In this document: piece after piece, positions 6,541 through 38,843 of the stretch
Numbering within the stretch: position 1 is the stretch's first letter
Layout: each line of letters starts with the position of its first letter
Origin: Hymenobacter busanensis
GTDB lineage: Bacteria; Bacteroidota; Bacteroidia; Cytophagales; Hymenobacteraceae
DNA length: 64,000 nt
Assembly (NCBI RefSeq): GCF_008727865.1
Contig: NZ_VTWU01000002.1
Location: 124,001-188,000, forward strand
Direction of reading: 5' to 3'
The notes under the pieces: model-generated
Told to the model about the DNA's origin: nothing
The model's input: only the letters and a program-made list of their open reading frames with translations
Database searches by the model: none
Translations under genes and position numbers: made by a program

Positions 6541-6620
6541 TGGCTAAATGGCTGAATGGTTGACTGGCTGGTCGTTCTGAAACGTTGGAACGGCTGGCCA
6601 GTCAACCATTCAGCCATTTA
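6541..6620. repeat. Empty palindrome of the TGGCTGAA repeat family
   Basis: Perfect 24-bp inverted arms at 6545-6568 and 6597-6620, with a second short stem (CGTTC 6573-6577, GAACG 6588-6592) inside the loop. The left arm is built from a degenerate 8-bp unit repeated in phase: TGGCTAAA, TGGCTGAA, TGGTTGAC, TGGCTGGT from 6541. The stretch TAAATGGCTGAATGGTT is identical to the left border of the four-helix-bundle cassette near 36.4 kb. It holds no ORF and ends 14 bases before the start of the next gene. Confidence 0.85.
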
Positions 6621-13766: not shown

Positions 13767-16700
13767 CTATTCAACAATGAGGCGCTTCACCAGTAGCCCT
13801 TCGGTGGTCGAAAGTTGCAGCGAGTACATGCCGCGGGGCAGGCTCGTCACGTCAAACGACGCCTTTAGGCCGTTGGCCGCCGCAGGCAGCATACGCGCCT
13901 GCACCTGCTGGCCCAACGCGTTGTAGAGCGTGGCCTGCACTGCTTTGTGCGTCAGGGCTGCGGGTAGCTCTACCCAAAACAGCTGCTGTGCCGGGTTGGG
14001 GTATACCCCAACCTGCTCGGCCAACGCGGTGCTATGGGTAGTACCGAGCACAGTGGTGAACGGCACGTTGGCCGTAGCGGTAGACCGGGTGCCACCGGCG
14101 CAGTTGCTGACGATGCTTACGGTGTAAGGCGTATTGGGCGTCAGTCCCATCAGGGTTAGCGGCGAACCACTCGCCCCAACGCTCTGGGCACTGCCACCGG
14201 CGGGAGTGTACGTTACGGTGTAGTTGGTAGCCGATGCACTGGGCGTGAAGCTCACCGTTGCAGCGGTGCTGCTCACGCTTGTCACCAACACGTTGGTGGG
14301 GGCGGCACACACGGCCGGCAGCGAAGCCGTCAGGAAGTTCAAGCAAACAGGCGTCGTTGAGGTCTGGCTGCCGCAAATGCTGGTCACGCACACGGTATAT
14401 TGCGTGTTCGGCTGCAGACCAGTGATGGTCACCGGCGAGCTGGTCGGGTTCGGCGTCACAATCACCGGCAGGCTACCGCCCGTGGTGATGTACGACACCT
14501 GGTAGCTCGTATTGCCAGCCGCGCCCACAAAGTTCACCTGGGCCGAGTTTGGCGTGATACCCGTTGCCGTTAGCCCGGTGATGGGCGGGCAGGCGGGTGC
14601 CGCAGCCGTGGTAAACGTAGTCGTGGCTGCCGTCGACGTCTGTCCACCGCCGCAGTTGCTCACCACGCTCACGGTGTATTGTGTGCCGGGAGTCAACCCG
14701 CTTAAGGCTACGGGTGAAGCCGTGGGCGCAGGCGTGACGGTGGTAGCCGAACCACCTTGCGGCGTGTACGTTACCGTGTAGCCCGTGCCGGCACTGGCTG
14801 GCGTAAACGTGAGGCTGGCAGAAGTAGACGTAATGCTGCCGGCCGTCAAGTTGGTAACGGGGTTGCAAGGCGCCAGCGTGGTAAAGGTGGTGGTAGCAGC
14901 GGTGGAAGTTTGACCAGCGCCACAGTTGCTCACCACCGACACCGTGTAGGTAGTGCCGGGCAGCAAACCCGTCAGGGCCACCGGCGACGCCGTGGGGTTG
15001 GGCGTGACGGTGGTAGCCGAGCCGCCCGCCGGCGTGTACGTCACCGTATAGCTCGTGCCGGTGCTGGCAGGCGTAAAGCTGAGGCTTGCCGACGTAGTGG
15101 TAATGCTACCGGCCGCCAGGTTCGTTACCGCGTTGCACGGGGCCAGGGTGGTAAACGTAATGGTGCTGGCCGTCGAGTTAAGCCCGTTGGAGCACTGGCT
15201 CGTCACCGAAACCGTGTACGTAGTGCTCGGGGCCAAGCCCGTCAGCTGCACCGGCGAAGACGTGGGTGCAGGCACAATGGTAACCGCCTGCCCAGCCTGC
15301 GACGTGTATGTAACCGTGTACGTTGCCCCACCAGTTGGAGGAGCAAACGTGAGCGTCGCGCTGTTCGTCGTTACGTTGGTAGCCGCTAGGCCCGTTACCG
15401 GGTTGCAGGGCGTGAGTGTAGTGAAAGTAGCCGTTGCCGCCGGGCTCTGGCCACCGCCGCAATTGCTCACAATGCGCACTGTGTAGGTGGTACCCGGTGT
15501 CAGGCCCGTCAGTGCCACCGGCGAGCCAGTAGGATTAGGCGTGACGGTGGTAGCCGAGCCACCAGCCGGGGTGTACGTCACCGTGTAGCTCGTGCCGTTG
15601 CCAGCCCCAAAGCTCACCGTAGCCGACGTAGTAGTAATGGCACTTACCGTGAGCGTCGTCGGCGCTATGCACGTGGTGGTGGTGAAGGTCGTGGTAGCGG
15701 CCGTCGAGGTTTCACCCGGCAGGCAGTTGCTCACCACCGACACCGTGTAGGTAGTGCCGGGCAGCAAACTCGTCAGGGCCACCGGCGACGCCGTGGGGTT
15801 GGGCGTGACGGTGGTAGCCGAGCCACCAGCCGGCGTGTACGTCACCGTATAGCTCGTACCAGCCGTTGGCGGCGTGAAGCTCACGTTGGCCGAAGTGGTG
15901 GTGATACCCGAAACCGCCAGGTTGGTCACGGCCGGGCACGGCGGATCGGTGGTAGCGCATACCGTGAACTGGCCGCCGGCTGCGCTGCCCACTTGCCACA
16001 CGCGGGCGTACACCGTAGCGCCCGGCGTCAGGCCCGTGGCACGCACCTGCGAGAAGTTGTTGGCGCCGAAATTATCGTTGCAGCCCAACGGCGTCAGCGC
16101 ACCGCAGCTGCCCGAATACAGTTGCAGGCCAGTGTCGGTTACCGTGCTGCCACCCACAGCGCCCGTCGCCACCTGCACGATGCCATTGGCGGGTACAGTC
16201 AGGCTAAACCACACGTCGTTGACGGCACCGGTGGTGCAAGTCGGCGCTCCGATGGGAGCCGCAGAAGCCGTAGCGCCTACCGTGGTAGCCGTTACAGGCG
16301 CGCAGGCCGTAGCCACAGTCAACGCCGTAGGTGCAGCGCAGTTGTCGTTGGCCGGCGGCGGCGGGGCGGTCGTCAGCGTCAGCGCCAGCGGCAGGCCCGT
16401 GCCGCTGGGGCAGGTGGCCTGAATGGTGACGGTGTAGGTGGTGCTCGGCGTCAGGCCCGTCAGCACGGCGGGCGAACTGGTGGGGCTGGGCGTGAGAATG
16501 GCCAGGTTGCCACCCTGCGGGGTATAGGTAATCGTGTAGCTGGTGGCACCCGTGGGCGGTGTAAAAGTCAACGAAGCCGTGGTGCTGGTGATGGAGCCCA
16601 CGCCCAGGTTGGTTACCGTACCACAAGGGGCGTCGGTGGTGGCACACACGGTCAGTTCGCTACCGGCCGTAGCACCGAACTTCCACACCCGCACATACAC

Positions 16701-33800: not shown

Positions 33801-35397
33801 GCTGCGCCTCACCGGCAAGTTTGCCTCCCCCAGCCTGCGCGGCGACGTGGCCGTGCGCAACGGGCAGCTCACGTTTGCCTACCTGAACACCACTTACACC
33901 TTCGAGGACCGCATCCGGTTCTTCGAGGACCGCATGGTGTTCCGCAACATCAAGCTGCGCGACATGCTGGGCAACAACGGCACCCTCGACGGCACGATTT
34001 ACCACAGGGGTTTCGACGACATGCGCCTGGACCTGAAGGCCTCGTTCCGGCGCATGCAGGTGCTCAACACCACCCGTCGCGACAACGACCTGTACTTCGG
34101 CACGGCCTTCGCCACGGGCACTGCCACCGTTACCGGCCCCACCGACAACCTGGTGGTGAACGTGCGCGCCCGCAGCGAAGCCGGCACCCGCCTCTCGCTT
34201 CCGCTCGACAACGCCGCCACGGCCACGCAGGCCAGCTACATCCGCTTCGTCAACCGTAACCCGGCGCTGCAGGACACCACCAAAACCGCCACCGGCCCGG
34301 TGCGGCCGAAGGTGGACCTCTCGGGCATCTTGCTCAACTGCGTTTTCGACGTGACCCAGGACGCCTATATGGAGGTGATTCTGGACGAGAATACCGGCGA
34401 CGTGATTCGCGGAGCCGCCGCTGGGCAGCTGCGCCTGAACATCGACACCCGCGGCGACTTCAACATGTACGGGCAGCTGGAAATCGTGCGCGGGGCCTAC
34501 AACTTTACCTTGCAAGGCCTTGTGAACAAAGAGTTTCAGGTGCGGCCCGGCGGCACGCTCACCTGGAACGGCGACCCGTTGGCCGGTGAAATGGACGTAA
34601 CGGCCACCTACACCCAACGCACGCCGCTGGGTCCAGCCCAGGGCTTCAGCAGCAACTACACCGCCTCGGTTACGGCCGTGATGAACCTGACCGGCGACAT
34701 GCTGCTGCCGCGCATTCAGCTCGGGCTGGAGTTTAACGATTCGCCCTCGGCCGCCGAGGGCGAAATCATTTCCTTCCTCTCCAACATCCGCAACGACGAG
34801 CAGGAGCTGAATCGGCAGGTATTTTCGCTGCTGCTGTTCCGGCAATTGGCGGCCGTGGGCGGCGTGGGCGGCGGGGCTTTGGGCGGCACCACCGGCACGG
34901 TGCAAAACAGCCTGGGCCAGATTCTGTCGACGCAGCTGGGGTTGCTTACCTCGCAAATCGACCAGAATCTGGAAATCAACTTCAACCTCGACGGCGTGAC
35001 GGCTGAGGAACTGCAACGGCTGCAAGTGCGCCTGAGCTACAGCCTGCTGCAAGGGCGCCTGCGCTTTACCCGGCAAGGCGGCATCAGCAACACCACGACC
35101 ACGCCCGACGGCGGCGTGGCTACCAGCCAAACCTCCTTGGTGGGCGACCTGAGCCTGGAATACTTCGTGCGCAAAGACGGCAAGTTCCGGGTGCGCCTGC
35201 GCTACGAAACCACCCCCCGCGACCTGGGCCAGACGCTGGTGAACCAGCAGCGCGCCGGCCTCAGCTTCGTGCACACCGAGCAGTTCGACAACCTCACCGA
35301 GCTCTTTGCCCGTAAGCGCCTGCGCCGCCGCGAAGAAGCCGCCCGCAAAGCCCGCGAGCAGCTCACCATCGACGACGACCCGCGCACCTCGCTGTAA
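30838..35397 (+). CDS. tamB: Translocation/assembly module TamB (AsmA-like, DUF490)
   Basis: 1519 residues from a GTG at 30838, which begins directly before the signal-anchor IKAILKVLLGLLLLLGLLLG; the frame runs 45 codons further up without a plausible signal. The body is a very long series of amphipathic beta strands (AsmA/TamB type). The C-terminal 350 residues carry the DUF490 signature, including GDFNMYGQLEIVRGAYNFTL, KEFQVRPGGTLTWNGDP and LEFNDSPSAAEGEIISFLSN. Such proteins bridge the periplasm and move phospholipid or assist outer-membrane protein assembly. It opens a strand-consistent run into ftsX. Confidence 0.92.
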   Translation: MQVIKAILKVLLGLLLLLGLLLGAAVLALRIPAVQTSVARKTAAILSDKLGHQVTIGRVDVRPFTRVVLDQVHVLDRAGNELFHIGRTDATISVFSIFSPNKLYISKATLTEPRFSLVTYAGQPDSTNLDQFLGAVKKLLGAPDTTKAKTPFDFKIEAVDLRNARFVLNRQNRPKEPYYGKSMDYAHMDIDSVYADLSQIWFRGDTIHARIAGMRAVDIPSKTRLKELAADMTFATHFWEFDQLNLRVGNSRLRDYVKFEYAHFLNFVDFNDSVKVTARLKPSRVYSSDIALFAPQLNGWNEQVLISGEAKGYVRNFTAKNLDLRYSTGGTHIIGNITAEGLPEWKETFAELRLRPGTVLNPVDLKPMLPKDVYTYFDRVGTLKLNGQFLGFYNDFVANGDFETRLGNVTSDVNLKFKNDARFSSYEGTVRTSNFQLGKLLGDESIIRDVAVNGRVKGQGFTPEGARARVTATIPHIWVKGYRYQNIQVTDGQLSRQSFDGKVRVQDPNLQVSGEGTISFGRQQAFDLIANVQKANLQALGIINQPLTVSARADVKFQGLTLDALLGRIHLRDARLALRGRTVHLDTLDLLATRRNGERLLAMRSDAFNLRAQGNFEFTRVIRDVQQLADEYLLNFQGDAAATAAYYRRKRRLPTPDYNIALNLYLKRPNPLIHVFLPQLTVSDSTRIEGSFRNGNTSILNLSGSVAKVQYDSIRVEKATFDLLTSKLPYEPTVLAQTSVTSQRQRLPLLGATEQFYVEGVWDQDKINFSSSLAQTGTTNRAQINGALDFLPGAVQIVFRQSGVNLLGREWTIAQDNAITIRGGGREVDVQNFTLSNGGQRVSAVGQVSEDPSRTLHLEVKDLELATLSSLTRQNMTGRVNAVGDVRGVFGKLVASARLNVDSLYFDKVLIGNVAGVSDWDNQASRLGVNLNVVRDGRNVLSVAGTIAPGAAQEQLNLTGVLNDAPIKLAEPFLAGVLKDLGGTGRGTLRLTGKFASPSLRGDVAVRNGQLTFAYLNTTYTFEDRIRFFEDRMVFRNIKLRDMLGNNGTLDGTIYHRGFDDMRLDLKASFRRMQVLNTTRRDNDLYFGTAFATGTATVTGPTDNLVVNVRARSEAGTRLSLPLDNAATATQASYIRFVNRNPALQDTTKTATGPVRPKVDLSGILLNCVFDVTQDAYMEVILDENTGDVIRGAAAGQLRLNIDTRGDFNMYGQLEIVRGAYNFTLQGLVNKEFQVRPGGTLTWNGDPLAGEMDVTATYTQRTPLGPAQGFSSNYTASVTAVMNLTGDMLLPRIQLGLEFNDSPSAAEGEIISFLSNIRNDEQELNRQVFSLLLFRQLAAVGGVGGGALGGTTGTVQNSLGQILSTQLGLLTSQIDQNLEINFNLDGVTAEELQRLQVRLSYSLLQGRLRFTRQGGISNTTTTPDGGVATSQTSLVGDLSLEYFVRKDGKFRVRLRYETTPRDLGQTLVNQQRAGLSFVHTEQFDNLTELFARKRLRRREEAARKAREQLTIDDDPRTSL

Positions 35398-35482
35398 GTT
35401 GCGGATTGCCAGTTGCTAGCTTGCCTGGGGCAGCCTGTTTTACCTCAATTGCCGGGCAACTGGTAACTGGCAACTCGCAACT
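35397..35482. repeat. AACTGGCAACT-family palindrome between tamB and ftsX
   Basis: Left AGTTGCGGATTGCCAGTT (35397-35414) continues to about 35428. It pairs with the inverted right side 35451-35482 (AACTGGCAACTCGCAACT core) with a one-base bulge and several G-U wobbles, over about 31 positions. It starts in the last base of the tamB stop codon and ends just before the ftsX -7 element. Confidence 0.75.
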
Positions 35483-35485
35483 GCC

Positions 35486-35493
35486 TATTTTTG
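35486..35493 (+). promoter_or_regulatory. -7 element TATTTTTG immediately before ftsX
   Basis: Exact TAnnTTTG match whose last base is 9 bases before the ftsX ATG at 35503, implying a leader of only a few nucleotides or a leaderless mRNA. Confidence 0.55.
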
Positions 35494-35502
35494 CCCTCCC
35501 CT

Positions 35503-36396
35503 ATGCCGCAATTCCGCCCCGTCCGCAAAAAGAAGCTTGGTAGCTACCCCCACACGATGGTGGTGTTCAGCATCACGCTGGCGTTGCTGGTCATTGGGCT
35601 GTTTGGGCTACTGCTGGTGCACGCGCACAAGCTTTCGGAAGCGGTGAAGCAGAACCTGGAGGTGCAGGTGTACCTAGAGCGCGACCTGCCCGAAACCCAG
35701 TTGCTGGCCTTGCAGCGCACGTTTGCGCAGAAGCCCTACATTGCTTTCAAAGGCAGCGAGCCGCAGGTGCGGTTCCTCTCGAAAGAGGAAGGCGCCCAAG
35801 AATTCGTGCAGCTCACCGGCGACGACTTTCAGCAGTTTTTGGGCGACAACCCCCTGCGCGACGCCTACATCCTGAAAATCAACCCCGAGTTTGCCGACTC
35901 CGTAAGTTTGCGCCGCCTCAGCCAGGATTTGCGCCAGCAGCCGGGCGTGTTCGAGGTCAGCTACGTGCAGAGCCTGATTACTTCCATCAACCAGAACGTG
36001 CGCAAGGTGAGCCTGTTGCTGCTGGGTTTTGCGGCCTTGCTGGTGGTGGTGGTGTCCATTCTCATCAACAACACCATCAAGTTGGCGCTGTTCTCGCAAC
36101 GCTTCCTCATCCGCTCGATGCAGCTGGTGGGCGCCACGTCGTGGTTTATTCAGAAGCCGTTCCTGCGTCGCGCTACCTGGCAGGGCGTGGTGAGCGGCGC
36201 CTTGGCGAGCCTGCTGCTGTTGGCCCTGCTCCAATACGCCTACCTGCAGGTTACCGAGCTGCAGCTGCTGCGCGACGAACGCCTGATTGGGGCCGTGCTC
36301 GTCGCATTGGTGGTACTGGGCGGTGTCATTGGCTTTTTCAGTTCCTACCGCGCCGTGCGCAAGTACCTGCGCATGTCGCTCGACGACTTGTACTAG
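35503..36396 (+). CDS. ftsX: Cell division permease-like protein FtsX
   Basis: 297 residues from the ATG at 35503; a TTG at 35491 overlaps the promoter element. First membrane helix near 20-42 (VVFSITLALLVIGLFGLLLV). A periplasmic domain follows (EVQVYLERDLPETQL to FEVSYVQSLITSIN). Three C-terminal helices (LLLLGFAALLVVVVSILINNT; SGALASLLLLALLQYAYL; IGAVLVALVVLGGVIGFFSS) form the MacB/FtsX-type permease core. With FtsE it forms the complex that activates cell-wall hydrolases at the septum; ftsE is not adjacent. It heads the block ftsX-DUF3098-uppP-truB-ribF, here split by a small cassette. Confidence 0.93.
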   Translation: MPQFRPVRKKKLGSYPHTMVVFSITLALLVIGLFGLLLVHAHKLSEAVKQNLEVQVYLERDLPETQLLALQRTFAQKPYIAFKGSEPQVRFLSKEEGAQEFVQLTGDDFQQFLGDNPLRDAYILKINPEFADSVSLRRLSQDLRQQPGVFEVSYVQSLITSINQNVRKVSLLLLGFAALLVVVVSILINNTIKLALFSQRFLIRSMQLVGATSWFIQKPFLRRATWQGVVSGALASLLLLALLQYAYLQVTELQLLRDERLIGAVLVALVVLGGVIGFFSSYRAVRKYLRMSLDDLY

Positions 36397-36398
36397 CG

Positions 36399-36830
36399 TT
36401 AAATGGCTGAATGGTTATATGGCTGAGCAACCCTTTCCGGCACCGAAGTATCTACGCCTCGGCGACATCGAGTGCTACCGGGTTAGTTTTGCCCTCAGCA
36501 ACGTGGTGTGGCAGCAGGTGAAAGGCTGGCCGGCCATGGCTCAACGCACGGTTGGCGAACAGTTCGTGCGCGCCACCGACAGCATCTCCGCCAATATTGC
36601 AGAGGGTTTTGGCCGCTATGGCAAGAAAGATAAGATCAAGTTTTACCGCATTGCCCAAGGCTCCCTATTCGAGGCGCTGGATTGGAATGAAAAGTCCAAA
36701 ATTCGCCAACTGACTACCCCCGAACAGTACGAGCACGTTTTTCACGAACTTCAGCGGCTACCCAAAATGATCAACGCACTGGTGAAATACACCAACAGCC
36801 ATCTGACCATTTAGCCATTTGACCATTTGA
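36399..36830. mobile_element. Four-helix-bundle cassette bounded by TGGCTGAA-type inverted arms
   Basis: Left arm 36399-36423 and right arm 36798-36822 match inversely at 21 of 25 positions. Three of the four differences become U-G pairs in RNA, leaving one mismatch. The right side continues with the same 8-bp-phase repeat to 36830. The start codon of the enclosed gene is in the left arm and its stop in the right arm. The left arm shares TAAATGGCTGAATGGTT with the empty palindrome at 6541-6620. It interrupts the otherwise tight ftsX-DUF3098 junction. Confidence 0.7.
36419..36814 (+). CDS. Four-helix-bundle protein, 23S rRNA intervening-sequence protein family
   Basis: 131 residues from the ATG at 36419; the same frame is open upstream through the end of ftsX, but that part is a shadow. 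The family core is plain: FVRATDSISANIAEGFGRYG, then IKFYRIAQGSLFEALDW, a short LTTPEQYEHVFHELQRLPKMINALV helix, and an end in the repeat. It matches the S23/IVP four-helix-bundle family (TIGR02436), first seen inside 23S rRNA intervening sequences. Biochemical function is unknown. Start and stop codons both fall in the inverted repeat arms, so gene and repeats form one unit. Confidence 0.9.
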   Translation: MAEQPFPAPKYLRLGDIECYRVSFALSNVVWQQVKGWPAMAQRTVGEQFVRATDSISANIAEGFGRYGKKDKIKFYRIAQGSLFEALDWNEKSKIRQLTTPEQYEHVFHELQRLPKMINALVKYTNSHLTI

Positions 36831-36834
36831 CTTT

Positions 36835-37146
36835 ATGCAACCCACGCGCTTTGCCTTCGGGCCCCGCAACTACCGGCTGATGTTCCTCGGTCTGGGCGTA
36901 CTGGCCGCCGGCTTCATTGCCATGTCCCTCGATTCGGCCCCCTACGGCGAAGGCGTTCTGGGCCTGACCGTCGGTCCGCTGCTGCTGCTGGCGGGCTTCA
37001 TCATCGAGTTCTTCGCCATCATGGTGCGCTCGGGCCACCCGACCAATACGGCCCCAACGCCCGCGGCTCCGGTAGCCGGCCAACCCACCCCTGCTGCCCC
37101 GGTGCCGGCCGTGCCGGTGACGCCGCCCACCTACCAGCGCCGCTAG
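36835..37146 (+). CDS. DUF3098 membrane protein
   Basis: 103 residues. Two membrane helices (YRLMFLGLGVLAAGFIAMSL and LGLTVGPLLLLAGFIIEFFAI) form the DUF3098 unit, with the conserved FAFGPRNYRLM start. The last 35 residues are a Pro/Ala-rich tail (NTAPTPAAPVAGQPTPAAP) reaching into cytoplasm or periplasm. Function unknown; in Bacteroidota it is regularly found between ftsX and uppP, as here, and ends 3 bases before uppP. Confidence 0.9.
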   Translation: MQPTRFAFGPRNYRLMFLGLGVLAAGFIAMSLDSAPYGEGVLGLTVGPLLLLAGFIIEFFAIMVRSGHPTNTAPTPAAPVAGQPTPAAPVPAVPVTPPTYQRR

Positions 37147-37149
37147 CCG

Positions 37150-37950
37150 ATGACGTACTGGCAAGCCCTGCTCCTGGCCATCGTCGAGGGGCTGACCGAG
37201 TTTCTGCCCATTTCCAGCACCGGGCACATGATTATTGCCTCGGCGCTGGTGGGCATCGAGCCCACGGCCTTTACCAAGCTCTACAGCGTGGTCATCCAGC
37301 TCGGGGCCATTGCCTCGGTGTTTGTGGTGTACTGGCGCCGCTTTTTCCAGAGCCTCGACTTTTACTTCAAGCTCATCGTCGGCTCGTTGCCCGTCATTGT
37401 GGTGGGCCTGTTGCTCGACGATTTCATCGACCAGCTGCTGGGTTCGGTAGCCGTTATTGCCACGGCCCTGCTGCTGGGCGGCATCGTGCTCATGTTCATC
37501 GACAAGTGGCTGCCCCAAACGCCTCCGCAGGAAGGCGGCCACCCCGTGACCACGCCCAGCTACCGGCAGTCGTTTATCATCGGTGTGTTTCAGTGCCTGG
37601 CGGTGCTGCTGCCCGGCACCAGCCGCTCGGCGGCCACCATCATCGGCGGCCTCACCCAGCGCCTCACCCGCCAGTCGGCGGCCGAGTTTTCGTTTTTTCT
37701 AGCCCTGCCCGCCATGGCCGGCGCTACGGTGCTGAAGGTGTACAAGAACTTCCACCTGATTCAGGCTCAGGACATCAAAATCATCCTGTTTGGCAACGTG
37801 GTGGCCTTTGTGGTGGCGCTGCTGGCCATTCGGCTGTTCGTCGGTTTCGTGGCCAAGTACGGCTTCCGCGCCTTCGGCATCTACCGCATCATCGTGGGCG
37901 GCTTGCTGCTCATCATGCTGGCCCTGGGCATTGATCTGCGCCTGATATGA
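37150..37950 (+). CDS. uppP: Undecaprenyl-diphosphate phosphatase
   Basis: 266 residues. Polytopic membrane enzyme that converts undecaprenyl diphosphate to the monophosphate carrier for peptidoglycan and other glycans; also named BacA. Both catalytic regions are present: VEGLTEFLPISSTGHMIIAS near the start and VLLPGTSRSAATIIGGL near residues 153-169. Seven or so hydrophobic segments. Its stop overlaps the truB start (ATGA), indicating co-translation. Confidence 0.96.
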   Translation: MTYWQALLLAIVEGLTEFLPISSTGHMIIASALVGIEPTAFTKLYSVVIQLGAIASVFVVYWRRFFQSLDFYFKLIVGSLPVIVVGLLLDDFIDQLLGSVAVIATALLLGGIVLMFIDKWLPQTPPQEGGHPVTTPSYRQSFIIGVFQCLAVLLPGTSRSAATIIGGLTQRLTRQSAAEFSFFLALPAMAGATVLKVYKNFHLIQAQDIKIILFGNVVAFVVALLAIRLFVGFVAKYGFRAFGIYRIIVGGLLLIMLALGIDLRLI

Positions 37951-38843
37951 ACGAAGAACAAGCGGACGTTCATCCGTCTGAGCAAAACCAGCCTACCCCG
38001 CCGCCTGCCACCCACAGCCAGCAGCCAACAGCTAATGAGCTGCTGACGCCCGAGCGCATTGCCGAGGGCGCGGTGCTGCTCATCGACAAGCCGCTGACGT
38101 GGACCTCGTTCGACGTGGTGAAGAAAACCAAGTACCTGCTCAAGGCCAAGAAAATCGGCCATGCCGGTACGCTCGACCCCTTGGCTACCGGCCTGCTGAT
38201 TTTGTGCACCGGCAAGCAAACCAAGAGCATCGACCAGATTCAGGCGCAGGAAAAGGAGTACACCGGCACGTTTCGCCTCGGCCAGACCACGCCGAGCTTC
38301 GACCTGGAAACGCCCGTCGACCACGAGCTGCCCACGGCGCACCTGACCGAAGAAGCCGTGCGGGCTGCCACCGCGCCCTTCGTCGGCCTGATTGAACAGA
38401 CGCCGCCGCTGTTTTCGGCTGTGAAGGTGAACGGCGAGCGGGCCTACGAGGTAGCCCGCCGCGGCGCCGAGGCCGAAATCAAAAGCAAGCAGATTACCAT
38501 CAAGGCCTTCGACATCACCGCTGTGGCCCTGCCCGACGTGCATTTTCGGGTGGTGTGCTCCAAGGGCACCTACATCCGCAGCCTCGCCCGCGACTTTGGC
38601 GCGGCCTTGAGCTGCGGCGCGCACCTCACCAAACTGGTCCGCACCCGCATCGGCGAGTACCGGCTGGCCGATGCCCTGAGCATTGCCGACCTGGAAGCCC
38701 ACCGCGCCCCGCGCCCCGAGGGCGAAGCCACGCGGCCGCAACGCCCGCGCCGGGAACGGCAACCCGAGCGCCGCGCTGGTCTGGAGTACTACAATGCCCG
38801 GAACAGCGCCCCGACCGCACCCGAAGCGCCCGAAACGGCGTAG
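37947..38843 (+). CDS. truB: tRNA pseudouridine(55) synthase
   Basis: 298 residues. Isomerises U55 in the T loop of tRNAs. A variable polar leader of about 35 residues precedes the conserved start AVLLIDKPLTWTSFDVV. The catalytic motif is IGHAGTLDPLATGLLILC, with Asp near residue 77. Further blocks are KEYTGTFRLGQTTPSFD, PPLFSAVKVNGERAYEVAR and CSKGTYIRSLARDFG. The C-terminus has a basic Arg-rich tail of about 40 residues. It overlaps uppP by 4 bases and is followed by ribF. Confidence 0.96.
   Translation: MNEEQADVHPSEQNQPTPPPATHSQQPTANELLTPERIAEGAVLLIDKPLTWTSFDVVKKTKYLLKAKKIGHAGTLDPLATGLLILCTGKQTKSIDQIQAQEKEYTGTFRLGQTTPSFDLETPVDHELPTAHLTEEAVRAATAPFVGLIEQTPPLFSAVKVNGERAYEVARRGAEAEIKSKQITIKAFDITAVALPDVHFRVVCSKGTYIRSLARDFGAALSCGAHLTKLVRTRIGEYRLADALSIADLEAHRAPRPEGEATRPQRPRRERQPERRAGLEYYNARNSAPTAPEAPETA

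Follow-up and report, generated by a model that had tools for sequence, protein, structure and literature searches.

REPIN/RAYT systems combine dispersed short palindromes with a dedicated small protein gene that is flanked by them, and the lineage of the protein tracks the repeat. Avd is a homopentamer that binds a reverse transcriptase (RT) and RNA. The likeness of PF05635 proteins to Avd is remarked on in the available part of PMC10053308, while the accessible portion of PMC4990558 records the function of the S23/IVP family as unknown and describes an intervening sequence (IVS) with a 28-bp terminal stem. In the P6b stems of the Nostoc trnL intron, according to the available excerpt of PMC4476775, one repeat class was swapped for another at one site.

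The window analyzed here is a contiguous stretch of 64,000 nt from Hymenobacter busanensis. Within it, a PF05635 four-helix-bundle (4HB) gene is enclosed by inverted arrays of an octamer, ATGGYTRA (Table 1). An earlier note on this sequence had described the arms as an inverted repeat, and indeed positions 36399-36423 and the reverse complement of 36798-36822 are identical at 21 of 25 sites. A recount from the sequence likewise agreed that the four differences comprise three compatible with G.U pairing and one U/C, and that the ATG (36419-36421) lies within the left arm and the TAG (36812-36814) within the right. By repeat search, the match comprises 28 nt at 86% (36398-36425 versus 36796-36823). 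The arms are therefore real, but each consists of tandem octamers rather than one 25-nt repeat: the left array reads ATGGCTGA ATGGTTAT ATGGCTGA, and the right one is a TRF array of period 8. Profile matches upheld the identity of both neighbors, ftsX and the DUF3098 gene, and of the S23-type gene between them. The protein of the latter matched PF05635 (E 1.8e-23; 83.2 bits, curated cut-off 33.8) and TIGR02436 (E 7.2e-26; 90.5 bits, curated cut-off 24), and the domain search at E 0.001 returned PF05635 alone, with no transposase, nuclease or Y1 (HUH) domain. No Rfam family exceeded its gathering score within 35000-38000.

Table 1 Features of the window, numbered from its first nucleotide
Feature	Position	Strand	Remarks
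Gene-less octamer hairpin	6541..6620	+	Member of the dispersed family; arms align at 6545-6577 and 6588-6620
Gene-less 7-nt-repeat hairpin before ftsX, after the preceding gene	35397..35482	+	Aligned arms 35397-35428 and 35452-35482
ftsX, upstream neighbor	35503..36396	+	Profile search
Left arm	36398..36426	+	Three tandem octamers at 36403-36426; begins 1 nt past the ftsX stop codon
4HB gene, 131 aa	36419..36814	+	PF05635/TIGR02436; predicted fold similar to 2GSC and 2RLD, more weakly to Avd (4DWL)
Right arm	36796..36831	+	About four tandem octamers of CCATYTRA type, 36799-36831; inverse match to left arm, 28 nt
DUF3098 gene, downstream neighbor	36835..37146	+	Start 4 nt beyond the end of the right array

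The flanks of the window gene reached a local alignment score of 20, which none of 5000 first-order Markov simulations of both flanks attained. Among 1057 pairs of the same spacing across the 64 kb, seven scored at least 20, one of them the 4HB unit and six lying elsewhere; the window pair alone is thus not compelling, and the case rests on comparison. Period-8 repeats by themselves are unremarkable across the window, which also holds a tandem array of ~270-nt units (14607-15857; 4.7 copies, 68% matches).

For this comparison, the left flank of each locus was aligned to reverse-complemented right flanks, its own as well as those of all other loci, applying a score cut-off of 16 that was picked once the scores were known. 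A set of 111 genus and family loci—all 23 from the genus, 28 further ones from the family and 60 hand-chosen among the family matches listed—reached the cut-off with 107 own flank pairs, as compared to 1328 of 12210 cross pairs (11%), the median scores being 24 and 11. In a set of 80 named loci, the best 80 of at least 422 confirmed ones and many of them metagenome bins whose phylum labels depend on binning, 68 own pairs and 1822 of 6320 cross pairs did so, this high cross rate being due to a word common to many of these loci. Thirty further phylum loci yielded 25 own pairs against 124 of 870 cross pairs; below the cut-off remained four, twelve and five loci of the three sets, respectively. 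The flanks of a control gene, DUF3098, scored 16 or more in 1 of 50 cases. RAYT-like Y1-transposase genes of the genus, a rough positive control, did so in 9 of 13 cases; their palindromes are of other kinds, and the cross-pair 95th percentile was 22. The suggestion that gene and arms form a recurring unit is hence borne out by matched flanks in all three sets. That the codons sit inside the arms, as the earlier note had pointed out for the window gene, proved incidental, and as a design feature it was dropped: an in-frame ATG fell in the left arm at 15 of 149 loci and the stop codon in the right arm at 56 of 165.

While the window's own genome (G000) has a single PF05635 gene, the genus has 23, spread over seven of eight genomes; at least one is present in 90 of 100 genomes of the family, and sampling across the phylum turned up matches in 157 of 198 genomes. 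Ratios of dN/dS of the 4HB genes were low, ranging from 0.03 to 0.10 in seven hand-picked pairs, of which L001/L183 is near synonymous saturation.

Inspecting the arms revealed a period of 7 or 8 at 165 of 191 loci (123 and 42, respectively) and at 24 of the 30 further phylum loci, with a median of 4.4 units per paired block. Both arms of one locus use one word, which varies from locus to locus; a single fixed arm sequence for all loci is ruled out, the arms being arrays with locus-specific words. Arm identity was 0.85 in register and 0.73 when shifted (101 of the 111 genus and family loci), a gap largely built in as the register had been selected as the best. Permuting the order of units left a best-register identity of 0.829, versus 0.843 observed (150 loci, of which 91 exceed their own permuted mean; Wilcoxon p 3e-5), and with only this slight effect remaining, the notion of arms as position-by-position copies was dropped. 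The two arms match mainly because the word is common to both, and a unit-by-unit match is doubtful.

We define the window subfamily by a protein at least 46% identical to that of the window, which covers 40 of 191 loci (the sets of 111 and 80 reused). ATKGYTNNATKGYT was present in the left flank or the reverse-complemented right flank of 35 of these 40—the exceptions being L190, L197, L207, L213 and L236—as opposed to 0 of 151 other 4HB loci and 0 of 73 control segments elsewhere within those loci. The contigs of the subfamily loci that carry it are labeled as Bacteroidota, Ignavibacteria, Planctomycetota and Patescibacteria groups. A second word, GTCATTNGTCATT, adjoins 14 of the 191 loci, in Mucilaginibacter, Nostoc, Planctomycetes, Verrucomicrobia and others, and its polarity is identical in all nine loci of this group for which polarity was determined. 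Across the 165 of 191 loci that passed filtering by score and period (the other 26 being dropped), and counting pairs that are non-independent and compared without a tree, word similarity at unrelated sites was 0.46, 0.46 and 0.45 at protein identities of <20, 20-35 and 35-45%, and 0.48, 0.59 and 0.65 at 45-55, 55-65 and 65-80%; sites were called unrelated when their flanks lacked a blastn match, as those of distant orthologous sites also do. Similarity in opposite polarity at unrelated sites was flat (0.38-0.42). A fixed polarity together with a word that changes with the protein is the pattern expected of a recognition site. Judging from these sequence comparisons, protein lineage and word go together, which makes a protein recognizing its own word the most likely mechanism.

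Copies of the unit occur in differing surroundings, as the earlier note had envisaged. On one contig of Mucilaginibacter rigui, two loci ~19 kb apart (L245 and L246) share a 483-nt stretch at 90% identity that runs from the 5' array to the gene's end, and outside it they resemble each other only in array words. The right array follows the gene directly in L246 and lies ~300 nt further on, past extra sequence, in L245. This extra stretch of ~300 nt between 4HB gene and right array (~2795-3127 of L245) perhaps contains a small open frame. Two Nostoc loci have 530 nt in common at 80%, flanks unmatched, and among the 1091 pairs of loci whose proteins are at least 60% identical, 725 match in neither flank. 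No target-site duplication was definable, the flanks of the compared genomes being too diverged and the 3' ends of L245 and L246 being different.

The unit was also said to split a normally tight junction between ftsX and DUF3098, and this held: in 50 comparison genomes examined of 100, the spacer measured at most 14 nt in 27 (two overlap), and a 4HB gene at this place was observed solely in the window, H. gummosus (L183) and one congener (L169, the same place as L023), whose gene is of another subfamily with another word. Other junctions, assessed by eye, contained gene-less 7/8-mer hairpins with differing words (7 of 50) or longer spacers without a recognized element (10 of 50). GTCAT-type palindromes were seen by eye at five of the 50 (L164, L165, L166, L171, a variant, and L176), implying that several element types use that junction. 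Between the window and H. gummosus, the unit at the ftsX site looks inherited.

Searching the window's own genome for the octamer-pair pattern returned 21 hits, as compared to none for the reversed pattern. They fall at 13 places, namely eleven gene-less hairpins, the window unit and an isolated match not forming a hairpin, and most of the gene-less hairpins have a common inner stem, GGTCGTTCT..AGAACGACC, that is absent from the gene-bearing unit. With at most 40 candidates scored per genome, which makes place counts lower bounds, the matches listed for a hairpin query occupied at least 14 places in G000 (including the query itself), at least 13 in G001, at least 17 in G002 and at least 13 in G005; in each of the other four genomes of the genus, they occupied at most one. 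A gene of the window subfamily is present in G000 and G001, with none among the 4HB hits of G002 and G005. These latter two being rich in octamer hairpins, the coupling of gene and hairpin is loose, and a strict one was not found within the genus. Arms occurring randomly without the gene family had been named as evidence against a unit. Arms without the gene do exist, but rather than being random sequence, they constitute a dispersed hairpin family that shares the octamer.

One hairpin position is common to the genus. The spacer after the gene for ATP synthase alpha and before that for gamma (families confirmed by profile) harbors a hairpin in all eight genomes (L293-L300), as judged by eye, with octamer arms in G000, G001 and G005 and GTTGTCA heptamer arms in the other five. 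The octamer hairpin is identical at 93 of 93 positions in the three genomes, compared to 84-92% for its flanks. It seems that one hairpin family replaced another at this atpA-atpG site.

We give a somewhat better than even chance to the window unit being one copy of a mobile-type, REPIN/RAYT-like element, whose 4HB protein recognizes its own word in the inverted arrays that bracket its gene. Such an element would comprise the 4HB gene (relatives of whose product are homopentamers) between inverted arrays in which a word of 7 or 8 nt is repeated ~3-6 times. The protein would bind its word in the arms, perhaps folded as a single-stranded DNA hairpin, and, once bound, would guide the copying or insertion of the armed segment by a host enzyme or another one acting in trans. 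Gene-less hairpins with the same arms would be dispersed in trans by the same protein. This movement would presumably be an active process.

The main alternative, to which we assign a minor though real share of the probability, operates at the RNA level: the arms would form a stem in the mRNA, the 4HB protein would bind this stem as well as the gene-less hairpins of other operons, host RNase III would cut, and the hairpins would be post-transcriptional regulatory sites whose spread is secondary. Consistent with this, the unit transcript is predicted to fold with a long terminal stem (z -3.4; none of 100 shuffles was as stable), Avd, a relative in fold, is an RNA and RT binder, and the atpA-atpG hairpin is kept in all eight genomes despite the difference between octamer and GTTGTCA arms. 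In addition, RNase III cuts IVS stems (PMC4990558, available part). Covariation of the arms, put forward as a check in the earlier note, was seen to some degree. In 40 non-overlapping pairs of loci at the same site, double changes numbered 79 versus 36.9 expected, and 53 of the 79 keep pairing, but one-sided changes were commoner (184); the full set of 317 overlapping pairs gave 832 versus 444.9, with 623 that keep pairing and 1686 one-sided ones. Pairs with fewer than 15 positions or more than 40% change in an arm were omitted from these counts, and some of those included hold different units (L001/L023).

The U-G differences between the window arms had been taken as a sign of pairing in RNA. 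Selection on RNA should give an excess of such differences, yet G.U-type (124) and A.C-type (120) sense-strand differences were balanced over 101 loci (p = 0.85), and with no asymmetry to be seen, RNA-level selection via G.U pairs was rejected. The near-identical copies in differing surroundings, 5' array included, likewise tell against the RNA-level system. The absent G.U excess thus speaks against selection for pairing in the sense RNA, and the kept position of the atp hairpin for some role there. Taken together, the unit proposed in the earlier note is supported as a recurrent gene-plus-arms element, whereas its RNA argument and the codons within the arms are not.

Less probable again, and in our view distinctly unlikely, is that the hairpin is primary and the 4HB gene a passenger inserted into existing heptamer or octamer hairpins, with hairpin-templated repair or array turnover maintaining the likeness of the arms. 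The eleven gene-less hairpins beside a single PF05635 gene in the window's own genome fit this account, as do the gene-less hairpins with other words at ftsX-DUF3098 in other genera and the word replacement at atpA-atpG. Yet insertion into resident hairpins does not predict that the word tracks the protein subfamily across unrelated sites and contigs assigned to different phyla.

The predicted structure of the window protein (pLDDT 94.5), a four-helix fold, resembled the S23 proteins 2GSC and 2RLD in a structure search and, more weakly, Avd, both by itself (4DWL; TM to its chains 0.66-0.70) and in the DGR reverse-transcriptase complex; over 4DWL alone, the DGR ribonucleoprotein 8UB7 and others, TM was 0.62-0.71 at E >= 0.0056. 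This similarity, together with the PF05635-Avd resemblance remarked on in the available part of PMC10053308, might suggest a retro-element in which the 4HB protein would partner a trans-acting reverse transcriptase much as Avd does, with spread via an RNA copy. We regard this as very improbable: RVT_1 (PF00078) gave no match in six of eight genus genomes, including G007 with its eight 4HB copies and G000, in which the profile search matched no candidate partner. Finally, that short intergenic repeats are simply common and the gene lies among them by chance is barely credible given the DUF3098 control (1 of 50), the octamer distribution (35 of 40 versus 0 of 151) and the other kinds of palindrome that flank Y1-transposase and small GIY-YIG genes in this genus, even though gene-less arrays are frequent and six other window pairs equal the unit's score.

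If the mobile-element reading is correct, its scope may be wider. As a tentative proposal, which we would sooner expect to fail than to hold, the unit could represent an undescribed class of mobile element in several phyla, in which a 4HB protein that has no known nuclease domain and is homopentameric in solved relatives would recognize a 7/8-nt word specific to its lineage, perhaps with one unit per subunit, and would disperse its own gene along with gene-less hairpins; the most familiar special case would then be the 23S IVS, and Avd would be a relative that was recruited. A literature search of incomplete coverage found no paper that connects PF05635 genes with arms of heptamers or octamers, which is weak evidence of novelty. 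For the 4HB genes, the arms provide a candidate partner, a flanking word of predictable sequence, and they may tie 23S intervening sequences, Nostoc heptamer stems and the heptamer arrays of several phyla to one protein family. They also raise the question of how a protein without a known catalytic domain could spread DNA.

With respect to the described systems, the unit has in common with the 23S IVS the S23/IVP protein family and an open reading frame within a segment whose ends form an inverted repeat. It differs in its location between ftsX and DUF3098, with no rRNA match in 35000-38000, in its gene-less dispersed relatives and probably in its arms of tandem 7/8-mers with lineage-specific words. 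Stems of 7-nt repeats and the replacement of one repeat class by another, as at atpA-atpG, are features of the Nostoc trnL intron P6b, where no such gene is named in the available excerpt (PMC4476775). Heptamer arrays of TAACTGA type likewise occur in Cyanobacteria and Bacteroidetes; according to the available part of PMC4679880, in which a search for the terms 'S23' and 'helix bundle' found no mention, these repeats are direct, apart from one inverted case. A fold similar to that of Avd links the unit to DGRs, from which it differs in that no reverse transcriptase was matched in the window's genome.

Other small genes of the genus have repeat flanks of their own. The flanks of the RAYT-like Y1-transposase genes L353-L365 often contain palindromes, for instance GTAGCGCGGACTTTGTAGTCCGCG, unlike those of the 4HB and GIY-YIG kinds. 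Small dispersed GIY-YIG genes (L263-L276, L279-L281, L287 and L288) have inverted palindrome copies as flanks, GTCATTGCGAGG..GCAATC or GTCATGTCGAG..CTCGC; the flank score was at least 16 for 15 of 19 small genes (and for 30% of cross pairs, the palindromes being common), as compared to none of the five scorable among eleven long ones. GIY-YIG genes and their palindromes may form a further pairing of REPIN/RAYT-like type, built on a different protein. As a partner of the 4HB unit, a Y1/RAYT protein was rejected, since Y1 matches were present in six of eight congeners with other palindromes in their flanks. Nor was an IS/MITE-type transposase matched within the unit, and the two Y1 genes of the window's own genome lack octamer arms in their flanks.

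The 4HB system resembles REPIN/RAYT in that dispersed palindromic copies share the sequence flanking the gene and in that the repeat word goes with the protein lineage, the latter as compared without a tree-based control. It differs in that the protein is a four-helix bundle without a Y1 (HUH) match, in that each arm consists of tandem 7/8-mers, not of one palindrome, and in that the palindromes around Y1 genes of the genus are of other, mostly GC-rich kinds. The unit thus fails a defining feature of each of these systems—the location of an IVS, the enzyme of REPIN/RAYT and the reverse transcriptase of a DGR—and of the three, it is REPIN/RAYT that it works most like.
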